Part shown: positions 37,967 through 61,236 of the stretch, in pieces
Numbering within the stretch: position 1 is the stretch's first letter
Layout of the letters: every line of letters starts with the position of its first letter
DNA from: Collinsella intestinalis DSM 13280
Lineage (GTDB): Bacteria; Actinomycetota; Coriobacteriia; Coriobacteriales; Coriobacteriaceae
DNA: 64,000 nucleotides
NCBI RefSeq assembly: GCF_000156175.1
Contig: NZ_GG692710.1
Location: forward strand, 750,086 to 814,085
Direction of reading: 5' to 3'
The notes under the pieces: model-generated
The model's database searches: none
Seen by the model: only the letters and a program-made list of their open reading frames with translations
What the model was told of the DNA's origin: nothing
Position numbers and translations under genes: made by a program

Positions 37967-40165
37967 TCACATGCGATACAGGCGCGTCCTGCCCTTCTCA
38001 TCCACACGCACGGTAAGGCGCGCTCCCGAGCTTTTGCGATCGAGCTCGACGAGGAAGCGATCGCCCGTCCGACTCGCGAGGCGGCGCGGGCAGGTGGGAC
38101 AGTTGTTCGAACATGGGCCCTCGGCAGTAAGCAGGCAGTGCTCTGTGATCATGAGGGGCGCCGAGCCGTCCGCCGCGATGTCGACGATGTCGCCCGGATG
38201 ATGGTGCTCGACGGCGTGAGGGCTCTCCGCAGACTCCGCAGATGAGGCACCCGCCGCCCCGGCACAATGCATCCGAGCCGACGCGAGTTCCTCCGGCACG
38301 GGGTCTCCCGTCGCAGGGTCCCCCAATGCGGGGTCCTCCATCTGAGCCCTAACCGACGCGAGGTCCTTTATTGTGAGCTCCTCGGGGAGCCAAACGCGAC
38401 GCGCACCGAGGCGGACCAGGACGCGAGCAGTCTCGGCGTTCCACACCTGCAGCGGCGACCCTACCTCCCAGGGTACACCGGCAGCACGAACCGTCGGAAT
38501 CTGACCGATGTTGCGAACCACGACGGCGGGGGCTTCTCCGCGAACGACACGCTCACAAGCGGCTCGCACGCCCTCGAGGTCCTCGAGTCGGCAAACTTCG
38601 CCGAGGTCGACAGCGGTATGAGGCGATTTGCAAGCACCGCCCTCGCCCGGTTCGACCGTACCCGGCTCGACCGCGCACGCACCGCCCGCGCCCGGTTCGC
38701 CCACCGCCCCATTTTCTCGGCGACGGCGAACATGGGCAAAGCGAGCGGGTTCGGCAGACGCGCAATCGACGCCCAACTCGCTGGCAGCAATCCCTTCACG
38801 TCCGGCACCGGCTTCCGACGCCTCGAGACACGCCCCGGGCGCCACGCCCTCGGATTCTGCGGCGGCCAGGCGGACCTCCTCTTCGCGCATCTCCCGCACC
38901 GCGGCCTCGACCTCCAAAATCGTGCTCGCCGAGCGGACCACGTGCACGGCGCTGCCCGCCTCGACTTTTCGCTTGCAGGGAATGAGCACTTCCTCCCCCG
39001 AAGCCACATCGCGCGGGCACGGAACGATCGGCCAGCGCTTGGGGACGTCGGCCGGCGCATCGGGGCCGGGGGTCGAGCGAATCTCGAGCATGTCACCGGC
39101 AGCCAGCTCGCAGTCGAACGCCACCAGCGCCCCCTCGTAGCGCGGCTCCACAACATGCCCGACCCGCAGGCCCTGGTTGATAGCGCGCTCGACACTCATG
39201 AGATCGCTGCCGGTGGCAGCATGCCCGCCCTCGAGGTATCCCGAGGTGAAACCGCGGCTGAACGAACGTGCCAGGCACGCCTCCAACCCGTCGAGCTCGA
39301 TATCGCCGAGCGTTCGACCTGCCAAGGCGGCATCGAGCGCCTCGCGATAGCATCGAACCACGTTGTACACATAGTCGGGGCTCTTCATGCGGCCCTCGAT
39401 CTTGAATGCCGAGACACCTGCCTCGAGCATTTCGGCGATATGCCGGATACCAAGGTAATCGCGTGGGCACAGCAGGCGATCGCCATCGGGGCGCATCGCC
39501 TGCTCTTCCGCCGCACGCCCGCGTTCCCAGGCACCACCCGCAAGGACCGCGCCCGAGCCATCCTGCAACTCATAAGCCAGGCGACACGGCTGGGTGCAGT
39601 CGCCTCGATTTGCCGAACGGCCCCGCATCAAAGCTGAATATGAGCAGGCTCCGGAATAGCAGATGCAAATCGCCCCGTGGCAGAACGCCTCGATCTCAAC
39701 GCCCGTGGCGCACAGCTCGGCCAACTCGGCCACCGACAGCTCACGGGCACACGTCACGCGCTCGACCCCGAGCTCGCGCGCGGCAAAGTCCACGGCGGCG
39801 GCGCACTGCGCGCCTGCCTGGGTGGACAGATGCAGCTCGGCATCGGGCAACGCGGCTCGGATACGAGCAATGAGGCCCATATCCGCGACGATTAGGGCGT
39901 CGGCGCCCGCGGCAAGCGCGCTGCCCGCCAGCGCCACGGCATCGCCGAGCTCGTCATCCCGCACGTACACGTTGAGCGTCACGTAGACACGCGCCCCGTG
40001 GGCGTGCGCCAGCACGCACGCCGAAGAGAGCTCCGCAAGCGAGAAGCCCCCGTTGGCCGCACGTGCGTTGAACGATCCGAGCCCCACGTAAACGGCATCG
40101 GCGCCGGCGGCTATCGCCGCCCGCAACGCGTCGGGAGTGCCCGCAGGCGCCAAAAGCTCAACCAT
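37967..40165 (-). CDS. U32-family protein (peptidase U32 / rRNA-tRNA hydroxylation type), copy A
   Basis: A 732-residue protein; ATG 40165 with AAAGGGCG upstream. N-terminal TIM barrel LLAPAGTPDALRAAIAAGADAVYVGL, then the signature EAFCHGAICICYSGACSYSALMRGRSANRGDCTQPCR, KIEGRMKSPDYV, and a C-terminal Cys cluster EHC...CSNNCPTCPRR. Members such as RlhA and TrhP use an iron-sulfur cluster for RNA hydroxylation; older annotations call them collagenase-like peptidases. Residues ~465-545 and ~640-680 are low-complexity inserts (EPGTVEPGEGGAC; DPALGDPATGDPV). A paralogue is at 56761. Divergent from the PBP gene. Confidence 0.85.
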   Translation of the reverse strand: MVELLAPAGTPDALRAAIAAGADAVYVGLGSFNARAANGGFSLAELSSACVLAHAHGARVYVTLNVYVRDDELGDAVALAGSALAAGADALIVADMGLIARIRAALPDAELHLSTQAGAQCAAAVDFAARELGVERVTCARELSVAELAELCATGVEIEAFCHGAICICYSGACSYSALMRGRSANRGDCTQPCRLAYELQDGSGAVLAGGAWERGRAAEEQAMRPDGDRLLCPRDYLGIRHIAEMLEAGVSAFKIEGRMKSPDYVYNVVRCYREALDAALAGRTLGDIELDGLEACLARSFSRGFTSGYLEGGHAATGSDLMSVERAINQGLRVGHVVEPRYEGALVAFDCELAAGDMLEIRSTPGPDAPADVPKRWPIVPCPRDVASGEEVLIPCKRKVEAGSAVHVVRSASTILEVEAAVREMREEEVRLAAAESEGVAPGACLEASEAGAGREGIAASELGVDCASAEPARFAHVRRRRENGAVGEPGAGGACAVEPGTVEPGEGGACKSPHTAVDLGEVCRLEDLEGVRAACERVVRGEAPAVVVRNIGQIPTVRAAGVPWEVGSPLQVWNAETARVLVRLGARRVWLPEELTIKDLASVRAQMEDPALGDPATGDPVPEELASARMHCAGAAGASSAESAESPHAVEHHHPGDIVDIAADGSAPLMITEHCLLTAEGPCSNNCPTCPRRLASRTGDRFLVELDRKSSGARLTVRVDEKGRTRLYRM

Positions 40166-40303
40166 ATTCGCCCTTTCCCAGCATGTAATTTAGCTTAAGG
40201 ACCCGACGCCACGCGGGCGCTGGTCCTCGCATGCGGTATCGTATCAGCTATCTATGTGTACGTGACCGGGCTCCTCGCCCGATTGGATCGCAGGAGGTCA
40301 ACT

Positions 40304-54980: not shown

Positions 54981-55379
54981 TTACCAGATGAGGGCGATGA
55001 CCTCGCCGCCGATGCCCTTCTTGCGAGCATCGCGGTCGGCCATGACACCCTGGCTGGTGGAAACAATGGCGGTACCGAGGCCGCCGCGGACGCGGGGGAG
55101 GTCCTTCACGCCGGCGTACTTGCGCAGACCAGGCTTGGAGTAGCGCTTGATGCCGTTGATGACCTTGGCCTTCTTGGGACCGTACTTGAGGGTGATGTGA
55201 AGGGTCTTGGCGGGGGCGGTGTCCTCAACGGTGTAGCCCTCGATGTAGCCCTCCTCGTAGATGACTCGAGCGATCTCGACGAGCTTCTTGGAGCTCGGCA
55301 TCGAGACCTCGGCCTTGTTCGCAGCATTGCCGTTGCGGATGCGCGTGAGCATGTCTGCGATCGGGTCGGTGAGATTCAT
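54981..55379 (-). CDS. rpsH: 30S ribosomal protein S8
   Basis: A 132-residue protein; ATG 55379 with GAAGGAG upstream. [20 protein letters not shown] and [26 protein letters not shown] are standard. S8 commonly represses the spc operon by binding its mRNA near rplE. Confidence 0.97.
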
Positions 55380-55505: not shown

Positions 55506-55691
55506 TTACCAGCTGGCCTTCTTGATGCCGGGAAGCTCGCCCTTGAGCGCCAGCTCGCGGAAGCAGACACGGCACAGGCCGAACTTGCGGTACACAGAGT
55601 GCGGACGGCCGCAGCGCTGGCAGCGCGTGTACTCGCGGGTCGAGAACTTCTGCTTGCGATTGCACTTGACGATCATCGATGTCTTAGCCAC
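55506..55691 (-). CDS. rpsN: 30S ribosomal protein S14, zinc type
   Basis: A 61-residue short S14 with CQRCGR ... CRVCFR as zinc ligands; the form used under zinc sufficiency in Gram-positives. Confidence 0.97.
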
Positions 55692-55781: not shown

Positions 55782-56339
55782 CTATTTCTTGAACGGGAAG
55801 CCGAAGGCGTCGAGAAGGGCCTTGGCCTCTTCGTCGGTCTTCGCGGTGGTGACGATGGTGATGTCCATACCACGGGTGTGGTCGACGGAGTCGAAGTCAA
55901 CCTCGGGGAAGATAAGCTGCTCGGTGACGCCCATCGAGAAGTTGCCACGGCCGTCGAAGGACTTGGCGGAGATGCCGCGGAAGTCGCGGATACGGGGGAT
56001 GGCGACGGAGGTCAGACGATCGAAAAACTCCCACATGCGGTCGCCGCGCAGGGTGACCTTGGCGCCGATGGGCATGCCAGCGCGCAGCTTGAAGGAGGCG
56101 ATGGACTTGCGGGCGCGGGTGACCATGGGCTGCTGGCCGGTGATGACGCGCAGGTCGCGAACAGCGCCGTCGATAGCCTTGGAATCGGTGGCGGCCTCGC
56201 CGACACCCATGTTCACGACGATCTTCTCGAACTTGGGGATCATCATGACGTTCTCATACTGGAACTTGTCCTGCATGAGCTGCTTGACCTCGTCGTTGTA
56301 CTTGGTCTTGAGACGGGGAATGTACTTCTCCTCAGCCAT
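55782..56339 (-). CDS. rplE: 50S ribosomal protein L5
   Basis: A 185-residue 5S rRNA-binding protein; ATG 56339 with AAGGAG five bases upstream. [44 protein letters not shown], and [17 protein letters not shown]. In nearly all bacteria rplX precedes it; here it heads its own unit, because rplX lies 4.6 kb away. Confidence 0.97.
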
Positions 56340-56473
56340 TTTCACTCCTTACTGGGGTTTTAAGCACGGGGTTGGCCTCGTGGGTTAGCCTCGTGCCTCC
56401 TGACGTGCGCCATACCCGCGATGGCTGTCTTGGGCATGACGAATTGACGGCAGGAGCCGACAAAACAGTCGTT

Positions 56474-56502
56474 ACTATACGCTTATGCGGCGACGATTGC
56501 CA
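56474..56502 (-). promoter_or_regulatory. Candidate promoter for the split-off rplE operon
   Basis: On the minus strand TGGCAA (56497-56502) and TATAGT (56474-56479) are 17 bases apart. The leader after it contains a tandem CACGAGGC(T/C)AACC repeat (near 56362-56390) that can fold back on GGGG/CCCC partners, a possible site for S8-type feedback. Confidence 0.5.
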
Positions 56503-56565
56503 CCGCAACTTCATGTGTGCAGGTAAATCCATAAATCGGGAAACGACATCCCCTTCGTGCGAGTC

Positions 56566-56680
56566 GGGGCTGGGAGGACCGGGGGATTTTTTCTCGGTCA
56601 GGTCCTGCGCAAGACGAAGCGTCCACTGGACGCTTCTTTGCGTGCGGAATCTACAAAAATCCCCCGGCCCTCCCAGCCCC
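56566..56680. repeat. 115-bp palindromic element near rplE
   Basis: Outer arms GGGGCTGGGAGG-A-CCGGGGG + ATTTTT (56566-56592) and the inverse at 56655-56680 differ at one base over ~26. Inside, GAAGCGTCC/GGACGCTTC (56616-56636) form a perfect nine-base stem, extended by GCGCAA/TTGCGT. Two-part stem, as in the 23221-23318 element, but unrelated in sequence. Confidence 0.85.
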
Positions 56681-56760
56681 CGGCCACGCAAAGCGTTCAC
56701 ATCGTTGAATCCCCGCCACTCTATACTTGTTGCGAATCAACCGCTACTCCGGAGGTTTTC

Positions 56761-59235
56761 ATGCCTTCTTCTCCTTCGACACGTTTTTCCAAACCAGAAC
56801 TCCTCGCGCCTGCCGGCGGACCGGAGCCGTTTTACGCGGCGCTCGCGGCCGGCGCGGATGCCATCTACTGCGGCATGGGGTCGTTCAACGCCCGACGCAA
56901 GGCCGATAACTTCACTGACGAGTCTTTCGAGGCAGCCTGCCGTGCGGCGCATCTCGCTGGGTCGCGTGTCTATGTGACCGTCAACATCGTTATTAAAGAC
57001 GAGGAGATGTCCGAGGCGCTCTCTCTTGTCGACCGTTGCTGGAGGCTCGGTGCCGATGCCTTCATCATCCAGGACTGGGGCCTGTTTTTTGAGATTCGCC
57101 GCCTCATGCCCGAGGTGGAGACCCATATATCGACACAGGCGAATATTCACGACGCCCGGGGTACCGCCTGGTGCAAAGAAGCCGGTGCAGATCGCGTCAC
57201 GCTTTCTCGCGAGCTCTCCATCGACGAGGTTGCCATCATCCACGACGCCGTGGATATAGAGCTCGAAGTGTTTTCACACGGCGCCATCTGTTTTTGCTAC
57301 TCGGGCGTTTGCCTGCTTTCCAGCTTCACCTCCCGGGGGCGCTCGGCTAATCGCGGCATGTGCGCACAGCCCTGTCGCCTGCCTTACGAGCTGATTGACG
57401 AAACGGGACGCTCCTGGTCGAAGCCCGGTCGCGAGCGCGCCCTATGCCCGCGCGACACCTGCACCGCCGATAAGCTTCCCCGTCTGCTGGATGCCGGCGC
57501 TCACGCACTGAAACTCGAAGGGCGCATGAAGGCCCCCGACTACGTGCACTCCATCGTGAGCGCCTACCGTGCGCAGCTCGATGACATCCTCGCCGGCCGC
57601 GAAATCTCAGACGAGACCGCGCAGGCCCGTTACCGCCAACTCAAGCGCTGCTTCAATCGCGATTTCACCTCCGAGTATCAGGAGGGTCGTTCGGGCGATG
57701 AGATGATGAGCTACGAGCGCTCGAACAACCGAGGCCAAATCGTGGGCGAGGTGCTCGGTAGCAAGCCACTCGGCAACACAAAGGGCCTGAAACCCGACGA
57801 CAAGCGCCGTCGCGCCGCCTGGACGAAGCTGCGCCTTTCCGAGCCCGTGAGCAAGGGCGACCTACTCGAGCTGCGCCACGACGATGAGTTCGATCAGTTC
57901 CTCACCGCAATTGCCCCCGAGGATGCCCGGGCAGGCGATAGCATCGAGTGCCGCACCGCCCGCCCCATGCCCGCAGGCGCCCTTGTACGCCTTATCCGCA
58001 GCCAGGCCGCGCTCGACGCTGCAGAGGCTGCGCTCAAGCGCCCTGTCGCCCGCAAGCGCGCCGTGGATGTGCGCGTTGTGGCCCACCTGGGGCAGCCGTT
58101 TGCCGTTGAACTGACCTGCATCGACGATCCAGCGCTTTCCGGACGCGCGGAGGGCTTCACGGTGGAGTCCGCCAAGACCCGCGCCGTATCAGCGGAAGAC
58201 CTGGTCGAGCACGTGGGCCGCATGGGCTCGTCGCCATTTGAGGCGGTAAGCTTCGACATCCAACTTGACGAGGGCTGCGGTATGGGATTTTCTGCGGTCC
58301 ACAAGGTGCGCGCCGCTGCATGCGAAGCGCTGGAACGATCCATCCTCGCGCCGTACGCTGAGCGCCTAAACCATTTGATGGTGCAGAGCGACCCTGTGTG
58401 CCCGGCGGACTTGAACGACCTCGGGGAGGTCTGTGCGCTCGTCACCTCACTCAATGCCGCCGCGGCGGCACGCAAGGCGGGGGCGGCACGCGTGTACATG
58501 ACCGTTGACGACCTGCTCGCTGAAGGGCTCTCCCCTGCCAGCTGCTCCGCCGAGGGCGTCATCCCCGTGCTCGATGAGGTCTCCCGCGAACTCGACCACG
58601 AGCGACTCGACCCGTGGCTCACCCCCGGTGCACCCGCGGCCGTTGGCACCATCTCCGAACTCGCGCTCGGCGCAGAGATCTGTTCCGTTGTGGAGCTTCG
58701 CAGCTGCATCCCCGTGCATAACGTCCCGTGCATGCGTGAGCTCGCCGCCCGTGGTGCGCACGCAGCATGGCTCTCACCCGAGCTCACCCTCGCCGAGATC
58801 GAACGTATCGCCCCGCAGCGCGGCGAAATGACGCTGGGCCTCATGGTGCTCGGCGCTCCCCGCGTCATGACGAGCGAGCATTGCATCCTGCAGGTCGCCG
58901 GCGCCTGCATCCACGATTGCGCGAACTGCCGTCTGCGCGTCCGCGACTTCAAGCTCAAGAACATCGACGGGCGCATGCTGCCCGTCCGAACGGTCCTCAA
59001 CGGCCGTAGCCACCTCTACGACGGCGTTCAGCTCGATGCCACCCCACAGATTCCGCAGCTGCTTCGCGCCGGCGTTACGCGCTTCCTCGTTGACGGCACA
59101 TTGATGAATATCGATATGTTATCGCGCTCTGTTGCACGGACCAATCGCGCCCTGGAAGCCGCTCGATCCGGGCGCACGCCTGACAAACGTCTTCCTGGTA
59201 CAAGCTCTGGTTGCCTGTTCCAAGGCGTTGAATAG
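56761..59235 (+). CDS. U32-family protein, copy B (inside the ribosomal cluster)
   Basis: An 824-residue paralogue of the protein at 37967; ATG 56761 with GGAGG five bases upstream, TATACT at 56722-56727 as probable -10. Barrel ELLAPAGGPEPFYAALAAGADAIYCGMGSFNARR; signature EVFSHGAICFCYSGVCLLSS followed by GRSANRGMCAQPCR; KLEGRMKAPDYVHS; C-terminal cluster EHC...CIHDCANCRLRVRD. Residues from ~390 on hold the extra U32 C-terminal domains, so this is the long RlhA-like type. It is encoded opposite to the ribosomal genes, between rplX and rplE. Iron-sulfur and RNA-hydroxylation roles are inferred from the family. Confidence 0.87.
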   Translation: MPSSPSTRFSKPELLAPAGGPEPFYAALAAGADAIYCGMGSFNARRKADNFTDESFEAACRAAHLAGSRVYVTVNIVIKDEEMSEALSLVDRCWRLGADAFIIQDWGLFFEIRRLMPEVETHISTQANIHDARGTAWCKEAGADRVTLSRELSIDEVAIIHDAVDIELEVFSHGAICFCYSGVCLLSSFTSRGRSANRGMCAQPCRLPYELIDETGRSWSKPGRERALCPRDTCTADKLPRLLDAGAHALKLEGRMKAPDYVHSIVSAYRAQLDDILAGREISDETAQARYRQLKRCFNRDFTSEYQEGRSGDEMMSYERSNNRGQIVGEVLGSKPLGNTKGLKPDDKRRRAAWTKLRLSEPVSKGDLLELRHDDEFDQFLTAIAPEDARAGDSIECRTARPMPAGALVRLIRSQAALDAAEAALKRPVARKRAVDVRVVAHLGQPFAVELTCIDDPALSGRAEGFTVESAKTRAVSAEDLVEHVGRMGSSPFEAVSFDIQLDEGCGMGFSAVHKVRAAACEALERSILAPYAERLNHLMVQSDPVCPADLNDLGEVCALVTSLNAAAAARKAGAARVYMTVDDLLAEGLSPASCSAEGVIPVLDEVSRELDHERLDPWLTPGAPAAVGTISELALGAEICSVVELRSCIPVHNVPCMRELAARGAHAAWLSPELTLAEIERIAPQRGEMTLGLMVLGAPRVMTSEHCILQVAGACIHDCANCRLRVRDFKLKNIDGRMLPVRTVLNGRSHLYDGVQLDATPQIPQLLRAGVTRFLVDGTLMNIDMLSRSVARTNRALEAARSGRTPDKRLPGTSSGCLFQGVE

Positions 59236-59259
59236 GATCGCCTCGAATCGCATGTCAAG

Positions 59260-59295
59260 GGGGAGCGGGACTTCACACCCCGCTCCCCTGTTTTT
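59260..59295 (+). terminator. Terminator of the U32 copy B gene
   Basis: GGGGAGCGGG (59260-59269) pairs with CCCGCTCCCC (59279-59288), followed by TGTTTTT. Confidence 0.92.
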
Positions 59296-59339
59296 GTGGC
59301 TGCCTGTATTTGACCTATATGCAACGTTCGGTTTGGACC

Positions 59340-59363
59340 ACATATCGATACTTGTCGATATGT
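59340..59363. repeat. 24-bp palindrome between convergent genes
   Basis: ACATATCGA-TACTTG-TCGATATGT. Perfect nine-base arms around six bases; no gene starts nearby, so its role is unclear. The rest of 59296-59475 shows nothing. Confidence 0.6.
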
Positions 59364-59475
59364 TCTGATTGCCCTCTGAGTCGTTGTTCGAAGCACGATG
59401 ACGTCCCGCTCGTACGCCCTTCAGCACAAGGCTCAAGCCGTGTGGCAGCCCATGCGAACAGTGCATTCCCCCGCA

Positions 59476-60564
59476 CTACTCCTCCTCGGGGTACACAACG
59501 CCCCAATCACTGCGCAGACGGGTCATCGTCTCCATCACATCCGAAGCGTAATCGATAAGCTTCAGCTTTGACTCATCCCCGGCAACTGCCTTCTCCAGGT
59601 CGGCGATCTCGTAGCACAGCGCATACGCCTCAACACCAGCCGTGACCTCCTCGCGGCGACCGTCGGCCGTCCAAGTGATCGTCGCTCGGTCCGCGCGCGG
59701 GTACGCCATGATCTCAACGTAGCAATCGTCGAAGCACAGGTCAGCGCGCTTGGGCTGCTTGGCGTGCATGGTGAGGGAGAACACGCCGAGCTGTCCCTGC
59801 GCATTGCGCGTGATGAACCCGCTCTCTTCATCCACCCCCGTCTTAAAGAGGTTGGCCAAAGACACGACTTCGTTGGGTTGGCTCTCCATGAACAAGCGCG
59901 CAACCGAGAGCGCGTACACGCCGATATCCAGCATCGCACCGCCGGCAAGCGAACGGTTCCAGAAACGGCTCTGCACGTCCTCATAATCATGGAAACTACC
60001 GAAGTTGACCTGCGCAAGACGAAGTCGGCCAAACTCTCCCTCACGCGCACGACGCATGAGCTCGACATAGAGGGGCATGTGCAGGACCGTCGTTGCGTCC
60101 ATAAGCACAACGTGATGTTCATCGGCAATAGCACGCGCCTCAGCCAGCTCATCAGAATTAAGGGTGATCGCCTTCTCGCAAAGCACGTGCTTTCCAGCCG
60201 ACAAAGCTCCACGCAGGTACTCGATATGTGTGTTGTGAGGCGTGGTGATGTAGATGGCGTCAACCGCTGGATCTGCATATAGATCTTCAACCGAGCGATA
60301 TACACGTTCAACGCCGTACTCAGTAGCGAATGCTTCGGCCTTTTCCAGCGTGCGATTTGCCACGCCGTAAACCTTGCGTCCAGCAAGTGCAAGCGATTGG
60401 GCCATCTGATTGGCAATCACGCCACAACCAATAACCGCCCACCTCAGCTCAGGCGCGGTGAAGATATCATCCGGGAACGGCAATCCATCAACAGCGGCAA
60501 ACGCAGCCTTTGCTGCAGCAGCAGCGTCCAAGGGCGCAGCATTGAGAGTATTCTGTGCATCCAT
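59476..60564 (-). CDS. Gfo/Idh/MocA-family NAD(P)-dependent oxidoreductase
   Basis: A 362-residue dehydrogenase; ATG 60564 (weak GGGG-type ribosome site). A ~38-residue helical leader precedes the Rossmann fold WAVIGCGVIANQMAQSLALAGR; then VDAIYITTPHNTHIEYLRGALSAGKHVLCEKAI (catalytic Lys in EKAI, usually EKP) and GGAMLDIGVYALSVARLF. Close in style to dimeric dihydrodiol/xylose dehydrogenase-like members that oxidise sugars or cyclitols. Substrate unknown. Convergent with U32 copy B; part of the segment interrupting the spc operon. Confidence 0.87.
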   Translation of the reverse strand: MDAQNTLNAAPLDAAAAAKAAFAAVDGLPFPDDIFTAPELRWAVIGCGVIANQMAQSLALAGRKVYGVANRTLEKAEAFATEYGVERVYRSVEDLYADPAVDAIYITTPHNTHIEYLRGALSAGKHVLCEKAITLNSDELAEARAIADEHHVVLMDATTVLHMPLYVELMRRAREGEFGRLRLAQVNFGSFHDYEDVQSRFWNRSLAGGAMLDIGVYALSVARLFMESQPNEVVSLANLFKTGVDEESGFITRNAQGQLGVFSLTMHAKQPKRADLCFDDCYVEIMAYPRADRATITWTADGRREEVTAGVEAYALCYEIADLEKAVAGDESKLKLIDYASDVMETMTRLRSDWGVVYPEEE

Positions 60565-60690
60565 ATGTACCCCATTTCCATGATTGATCACTACGATGCA
60601 ATTGTGGCACAAGGAGCAAGTCTCAACACGGTCCATGTAAGAAGAAACTCTTAGTGAACCCTCTCATAGAAGGTTCGATTCACTTTTTAA

Positions 60691-60828
60691 AAGTGTACGT
60701 TTTGGGGGAGGTTTTACCTGTAAATCAGATATTGGAATCGGATCACTCGATGTTTGCCCAGGATAGGATTTGGCATCGACCCTGATTTCGACCGAACAGC
60801 CCCAAAACTTCCCCCAAAACGTACACTT
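60691..60828. repeat. 138-bp inverted-repeat element near rplX
   Basis: Arms of 25 bases, beginning AAGTGTACGTTTTGGGGG (60691-60715) and inverted at 60804-60828, match at 24 positions. The ~88-base interior is AT-richer and not strongly paired. It lies between the oxidoreductase gene and the rplX terminator. Confidence 0.85.
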
Positions 60829-60853
60829 ATCAATTTCAGGCATAAAAACGAAA

Positions 60854-60888
60854 TACCCCCTGAACTGCGTGAGGCAGTCCAGGGGGTA
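60854..60888 (-). terminator. Terminator after rplX
   Basis: TACCCCCTGAACTGC (60854-60868) pairs with GCAGTCCAGGGGGTA (60874-60888) with one G-U on the minus strand, followed there by TTTCGTTTTT. It ends the S10-side transcript at rplX, where other bacteria read on into rplE. Confidence 0.9.
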
Positions 60889-60912
60889 CGAAGGCGCTCT
60901 AGATGCTAAATC

Positions 60913-61236
60913 TTAGAACTTGTGACCGCACTTCTTGCAAATGCGGAGCTTGGTCTTGTGACCGTCGAGCTCGCCAGCCTCGTGGCCAACACGGGTGCGC
61001 TTGCCGCACTCGGGGCAGATGAGCTGGACGTTGGAGACGTCGATCGGCATCTCCTTGTCGACGATGCCGCCCTGCTGACCGGCAGCGTTGGGCTTGACGG
61101 CCTTCTTGGCGACGGCGACGCCCTCGACGATGACCTTGCCCTCGGAAGGCAGCGCGCGCAGGACGACGCCCTGCTTGCCGCGATCCTTGCCGGAGAGCAC
61201 CTCGACCTTGTCGCCCTTCTTGATGGACATAGACAT
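60913..61236 (-). CDS. rplX: 50S ribosomal protein L24 with C-terminal zinc-ribbon-like cysteines
   Basis: A 107-residue assembly initiator. KOW motif [35 protein letters not shown]. The C-terminus holds [12 protein letters not shown] and CKKCGHKF, a four-Cys knuckle seen in some bacterial L24s. ATG 61236 with GGAGAG upstream. Last gene of this half of the cluster. Confidence 0.97.

Follow-up and report, generated by a model that had tools for sequence, protein, structure and literature searches.

The string of ribosomal protein genes in which rplE follows rplX is intact in almost all bacteria. In Collinsella intestinalis DSM 13280, this string is broken. Within the window, the whole stretch of 64,000 nucleotides that was analysed, rplX is the final gene of a first half-operon and rplE is the opening gene of a second one, and the two are separated by 4573 bp that contain a U32 gene on the plus strand and a Gfo/Idh/MocA gene on the minus strand. 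The gene for S8, rpsH, lies 3' of rplE in the same half-operon. The features of the locus, in window coordinates, are as follows.

54981-55379, minus strand: rpsH (S8), identified as an open reading frame and by synteny, with an inferred start
55506-55691, minus strand: rpsZ/rpsN (S14), identified as an open reading frame and by synteny
55782-56339, minus strand: rplE (L5), NCBIfam PRK00010, 301 bits against a cut-off of 186
56340-56458, minus strand: rplE leader RNA, a covarying structure directly upstream of rplE
56474-56503, minus strand: predicted rplE promoter, -35 GTGGCA, N18, -10 TATAGT, sigma-70-like and conserved
56504-56540, minus strand: element of the TATGGATTTACCTGC type upstream of the rplE promoter, from the alignment of Collinsella and Atopobiaceae
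56566-56680, no strand: palindrome 1, arms 56566-56591 and 56655-56680, 96% complementary
56761-59235, plus strand: U32 gene, Peptidase_U32 and DUF3656 domains
59476-60564, minus strand: Gfo/Idh/MocA oxidoreductase gene, Pfam PF01408
60686-60833, no strand: palindrome 2, arms 60686-60715 and 60804-60833, 90% complementary
60853-60889, minus strand: predicted intrinsic terminator directly after rplX, a 16-pair stem followed by a U tract
60913-61236, minus strand: rplX (L24), NCBIfam TIGR01079 rplX_bact, 118 bits against a cut-off of 54

The profile matches and coordinates bear out the physical split that a preliminary description of this DNA had reported, and the terminator, the promoter and both palindromes lie where that description had placed them. 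The U32 gene, given its domain make-up with DUF3656, is presumably RlhA-like. The window contains a second, distant U32 gene (38930-40174, minus strand, about 40% identical) on the downstream side of rplE, and many Collinsella have one at a comparable distance. An assembly error as the cause of the split was considered and excluded: the window sits inside a 1.47 Mb contig of a 1.8 Mb genome in 3 contigs, which argues against an assembly break, and independent assemblies are split as well, one of them that of C. stercoris DSM 13279 (G028, NZ_CP085935), a complete chromosome with a gap of 25.5 kb.

The split is common to the entire genus. In none of the sampled Collinsella (about 40 genomes) are rplX and rplE adjacent. 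The two genes are 4.58, 4.59 and 4.66 kb apart in G000, G014 and G035, respectively, and 13 kb apart in G025; 31-61 kb lie between them in many other genomes, and in G034 and G026, the distance is about 870-880 kb, with the genes on opposite strands; in several draft genomes, the two halves reside on separate contigs, so that no distance can be given. Thus, the 4.6 kb of the window are the smallest among many gap sizes, and the local 4.6-kb insertion originally proposed is not supported. Outside Collinsella, all 22 genomes of the order that have both genes on one contig show them at a distance of about 20-440 nt, those of the sister family Atopobiaceae among them. Collinsella is monophyletic, with support of 1.00 and 100 in two trees (FastTree and a quick second tree). 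A literature search, with most subscription journals outside its reach, returned no published account of this split.

Nearly all of the further named records from outside Collinsella are contiguous as well, with spacers reaching 950 nt in Olsenella. The exception is Atopobium sp. oral taxon 810, in which rplX and rplE are parted by an insert of 6.05 kb that arose independently; the surface protein encoded by this insert (L130:3950-10000) has 1566 aa and an LPQTS-type anchor at its C terminus. The Olsenella spacers of 630-950 nt (L128, L129) are full of short palindromic repeats of the CTCAAATCCGGATTTGAG type, indicating that the junction accumulates repeats in other lineages as well.

The signals that flank the gap can be traced beyond Collinsella. 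Terminator-like matches as such are near chance in the region (6 against 4.4 +/- 2.1 expected); the one after rplX is by far the strongest. Most of the Collinsella rplX loci that were folded have a strong hairpin after the gene, with unrelated stem sequences, and terminator-like hairpins also occur between rplX and rplE in Atopobiaceae with contiguous genes. The promoter pattern alone likewise does not exceed chance (1 found against 1.7 expected), so that its weight derives from conservation rather than from the pattern itself: in each of the 40 Collinsella sequences examined (19 of them clearly distinct), the homologous element, mostly yTGGCA-N18-TAT(A/C)(G/A)T, ranks first among the sigma-70-like sites ahead of rplE, and it is recognisable by alignment in Atopobiaceae with contiguous genes. 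The adjacent TATGGATTTACCTGC-like element is kept throughout Collinsella and partly in Atopobiaceae, and might be a regulator site or a UP-type site. The stretch between rpsQ and rplN yielded no terminator, so that rplN-rplX are probably carried on the S10 transcript. Together, the predicted promoter and terminator point to two transcription units, in keeping with the preliminary description, although weak additional promoters or read-through are possible.

Between the promoter and rplE lies a leader RNA with a conserved predicted structure. It consists of hairpins P1/P1b and P2, followed by UUAAAACCCC and then by the Shine-Dalgarno sequence; P1 is formed by CUCCUG...CAGGAG and encloses an inner helix (P1b), and P2 is formed by GCACGAGG...CCCCGUGC. 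Among 18 Collinsella sequences, 94.7% of the cells in the 24 pairs are paired, and 11 of the 24 pairs display double changes. The values for the real alignment were not attained in any of 500 shuffles, whether for percentage paired, for covarying pairs or for covariation score. Slid controls drop to 30-63% paired, a comparison biased in favour of the structure, since the structure came from this very alignment; neither the shuffles nor the cross-family matches carry this bias in the same form. A covariance model (R1) built from Collinsella only finds matches in Atopobiaceae and in families f3, f4, f7 and f9, always directly 5' of rplE, and all 20 matches at E <= 0.06 in the 635 kb searched are located directly upstream of rplE, whether the genes are contiguous or split. 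The leader is thus present at the junction in most of the Coriobacteriia families tested, including genomes with contiguous genes, and a similar pair of hairpins is discernible by eye at Eggerthellales-like junctions. In C. stercoris (L079:1149-1379, minus strand) and G034 (L083:3145-3375, minus strand), an extra hairpin of about 110 nt is found inside P2. The impression from the raw sequence that these two genomes had lost the leader proved wrong; the full leader is present, with the long extra hairpin within P2.

Conserved structure with compensatory changes 5' of a ribosomal protein gene and recurrence before the same gene in related lineages are both hallmarks of ribosomal protein leaders. 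By this token, the rplE leader is probably an autoregulatory ribosomal protein leader, with S8 or L5 as the likeliest ligands. A comparison of words and minimum-energy folds yielded no convincing motif common to the leader and helix h21 of the 16S rRNA of the same genome. The lack of such an h21-like S8 motif, together with a ligand that is only deduced, would fit an alternative under which the leader stabilises the 5' UTR or acts as an attenuator and is no feedback site for a ribosomal protein. We consider this unlikely, given the class-wide conservation with compensatory changes directly before a ribosomal protein gene, at the very position where S8 acts in E. coli. With the autoregulatory reading, a candidate feedback site would have been kept on the rplE mRNA despite the split; the loss of feedback suspected earlier is not what the retained, covarying leader suggests.

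The hairpin after rplX, the promoter and the leader are all present in Atopobiaceae with contiguous genes, and therefore the boundary is older than the break. The split is an old, genus-wide rearrangement at a pre-existing operon boundary rather than a fresh insertion of two genes. The preliminary description had envisaged an insertion of the Gfo and U32 genes, perhaps mediated by the palindromes and followed by rewiring. A gap with only two genes and a palindrome near each of its edges does have this appearance, and yet a recent, local insertion of such a two-gene cassette is highly improbable. Every sampled Collinsella is split, mostly with larger gaps; U32 and Gfo are found near rplX in most species; the promoter and the leader predate the split, so the order of events would be the reverse of rewiring after insertion. 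The palindromes, too, had to be abandoned as mediators: G014 and G035 share the 4.6 kb gap, but neither carries palindrome 1 in the corresponding spacer, and G035 lacks palindrome 2 as well. Palindrome 2 is a dispersed repeat with the arm AAGTGTACGTTTTGGGG, present as about 10 pairs in the genome, and among the genomes checked, it occupies this place only in G014, the nearest relative. Both palindromes arose later than the split, as far as their distribution among these relatives tells.

The genes within the gap appear to be ordinary residents of the chromosome. U32 is orthologous throughout the genus, usually on the rplX side, and nearly every Collinsella has it close to rplX. Its place in Atopobiaceae and several further families is beside or near lgt, and hence, most likely, it moved within the chromosome; we take it to be a relocated chromosomal gene that lacks the look of a foreign cassette. 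The Gfo/Idh/MocA gene adjoins rplX in many Collinsella. The rplE side is more varied. In the window clade, and likewise in An268 and Candidatus Coprousia avicola, only 0.4-1.2 kb separate U32 from rplE; in the latter two, both U32 and RluA adjoin rplE. In the G033/G020 and G021/G026/G001 clades, rplE adjoins a metNIQ-yebC-lgt region.

Large gaps in two groups have a recurrent content. In the C. aerofaciens group (F) and in clade I, gene order is common on both sides of the 31-61 kb gaps, with RluA-U32-RidA-xanthine permease-ssnA-ygfK on the rplX side and diaminopropionate ammonia-lyase-ygeW-hydantoinase-yqeB-xdhC-rplE on the rplE side (the permease and RluA/RidA names were assigned by sequence inspection). 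The genes ssnA, ygfK, ygeW, ygeX and hyuA belong to the reductive uric-acid pathway (PMC12507026). A set of urate-degradation genes (ssnA, ygfK, ygeW, ygeX-like and hydantoinase), accompanied by yqeB, xdhC and a xanthine permease, is placed between the spc halves of C. aerofaciens-type Collinsella. This cluster is located at L086:9586-15682 and on the rplE side of L087, and it lies between the spc halves in G003, G005, G010, G013, G015, G024 and G036 as well.

These distributions bear on the original state of the gap. A compact order, rplX-Gfo-(RluA)-U32-rplE, could have been ancestral in Collinsella, in which case insertions or separations would have produced the larger gaps afterwards and the window would roughly retain the original form. 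U32 lies within a few kb of rplX in nearly all species and near rplE in two lineages, and G000, G014 and G035 share the compact order while their sister lineages (G034; G021/G026/G001) are fully separated; against these facts stand the two-sided gap order shared by clades F and I and the lack of RluA in the gap of the window, and we hold the compact ancestor to be an evenly balanced proposition. It is also possible, and we would entertain it tentatively, that the ancestral gap was already large, at 30+ kb and with the urate-degradation genes inside, and that the 4.6 kb of the window result from a secondary deletion. The gene order common to F and clade I on both sides of their gaps fits such an ancestor, as do the RluA-U32-RidA-permease order in the 13 kb gap of G025 and the absence of YgfK from the window genome and others closely related to it. 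However, a single clade of F, I and G025 is not rejected (p-AU 0.53), so that the block they have in common may have been inserted as a derived trait, and U32 borders rplE in two lineages (the window clade; An268/Coprousia), an arrangement for which compact ancestry needs no deletion. The Collinsella backbone is unresolved in the trees, and AU tests reject neither the compact nor the large ancestor; the notion that a large gap was certainly ancestral was given up after these tests.

Whichever gap came first, the explanation that we favour, and consider very probable on comparative grounds, is that the boundary came first and the break followed in the Collinsella stem, leaving spc as two units. 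In the common ancestor of Collinsella and Atopobiaceae, the rplX-rplE junction would already have been a transcription boundary, with a terminator after rplX followed by a promoter and a structured leader for rplE-rpsZ-rpsH and the genes beyond. In the Collinsella stem, other chromosomal genes, U32 included, would have settled into this boundary. The break was presumably nearly neutral, since both halves came with a start, a stop and a leader of their own, and for the same reason, the self-sufficiency of both sides, the junction would tolerate insertions. The gap then would have kept changing, to 4.6 kb in the window and, in the C. aerofaciens group, to tens of kb that house purine/urate-degradation genes; in some lineages, an inversion or translocation would have separated the halves completely. 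Under this scenario, unit 1 would comprise rplN-rplX behind the S10 genes, closed by the terminator, and unit 2 would run from rplE onward, from its own promoter and under the probable autoregulatory leader. Feedback would act via the leader on rplE-rpsZ-rpsH, whereas retroregulation of rplN-rplX as in E. coli would have been lost, and rplN-rplX would now depend on the S10 unit.

This locus provides a natural case of a highly conserved bacterial operon coming apart, apparently with the control elements in place first and the physical break later. In C. aerofaciens-type gut species, a urate-degradation cluster came to be placed between the halves of a ribosomal operon. With moderate confidence, we further propose that the rplE leader is a class-wide, previously unlisted autoregulatory site of Coriobacteriia, responding to S8 or L5, and that, along with the internal promoter, it made spc modular, allowing Collinsella to split the operon, in some species housing a urate island, without losing feedback on rplE.

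Among known systems, the closest counterpart is the spc operon of E. coli, in which S8 represses rplE at its start (PMC10931766). The view that S8 normally targets this junction is well founded for gammaproteobacteria, but for other phyla the review describes the control of spc as unknown (PMC10931766), and it is outside Proteobacteria that the leader becomes a candidate RNA for spc regulation. Collinsella resembles E. coli in having a structured mRNA site at the start of rplE, where the leader ends at the Shine-Dalgarno sequence, and in encoding S8 downstream in the rplE unit. In E. coli, however, a single transcript allows retroregulation of rplN/rplX, whereas in the window, and genus-wide, rplN-rplX are not contiguous with rplE; with a terminator and at least 4.6 kb in between, E. 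coli-style retroregulation of rplN-rplX is not expected. The S8 site of E. coli also mimics h21 of the 16S rRNA; in the Collinsella leader, the comparison of words and minimum-energy folds brought out no convincing mimic of this kind.

The 2020 catalogue of ribosomal protein leaders includes a Coriobacteria L31 leader (PMC7247131), which, like the rplE leader, is a short, conserved, structured RNA preceding a ribosomal protein gene within a single bacterial class. In contrast to the catalogued leaders, no rplE/L5 leader is named in the main text of that survey, and the rplE leader has no match in Rfam 15, where the region gives only implausible miRNA matches on palindrome 1, far below gathering scores.

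As for the break itself, insertion followed by full disconnection has been described for other operon junctions (Brandis 2021, PMC8046335). In that sample of Gammaproteobacteria and Bacilli, to which Coriobacteriia do not belong, 65% of the rearrangements fell between operons that stayed intact, whereas the Collinsella break lies inside spc. The course of events appears to be alike in both: ordinary chromosomal genes inserted at a junction, here U32, Gfo and RluA, which are shared across species, and the halves fully disconnected in some descendants, here G034 and G026.
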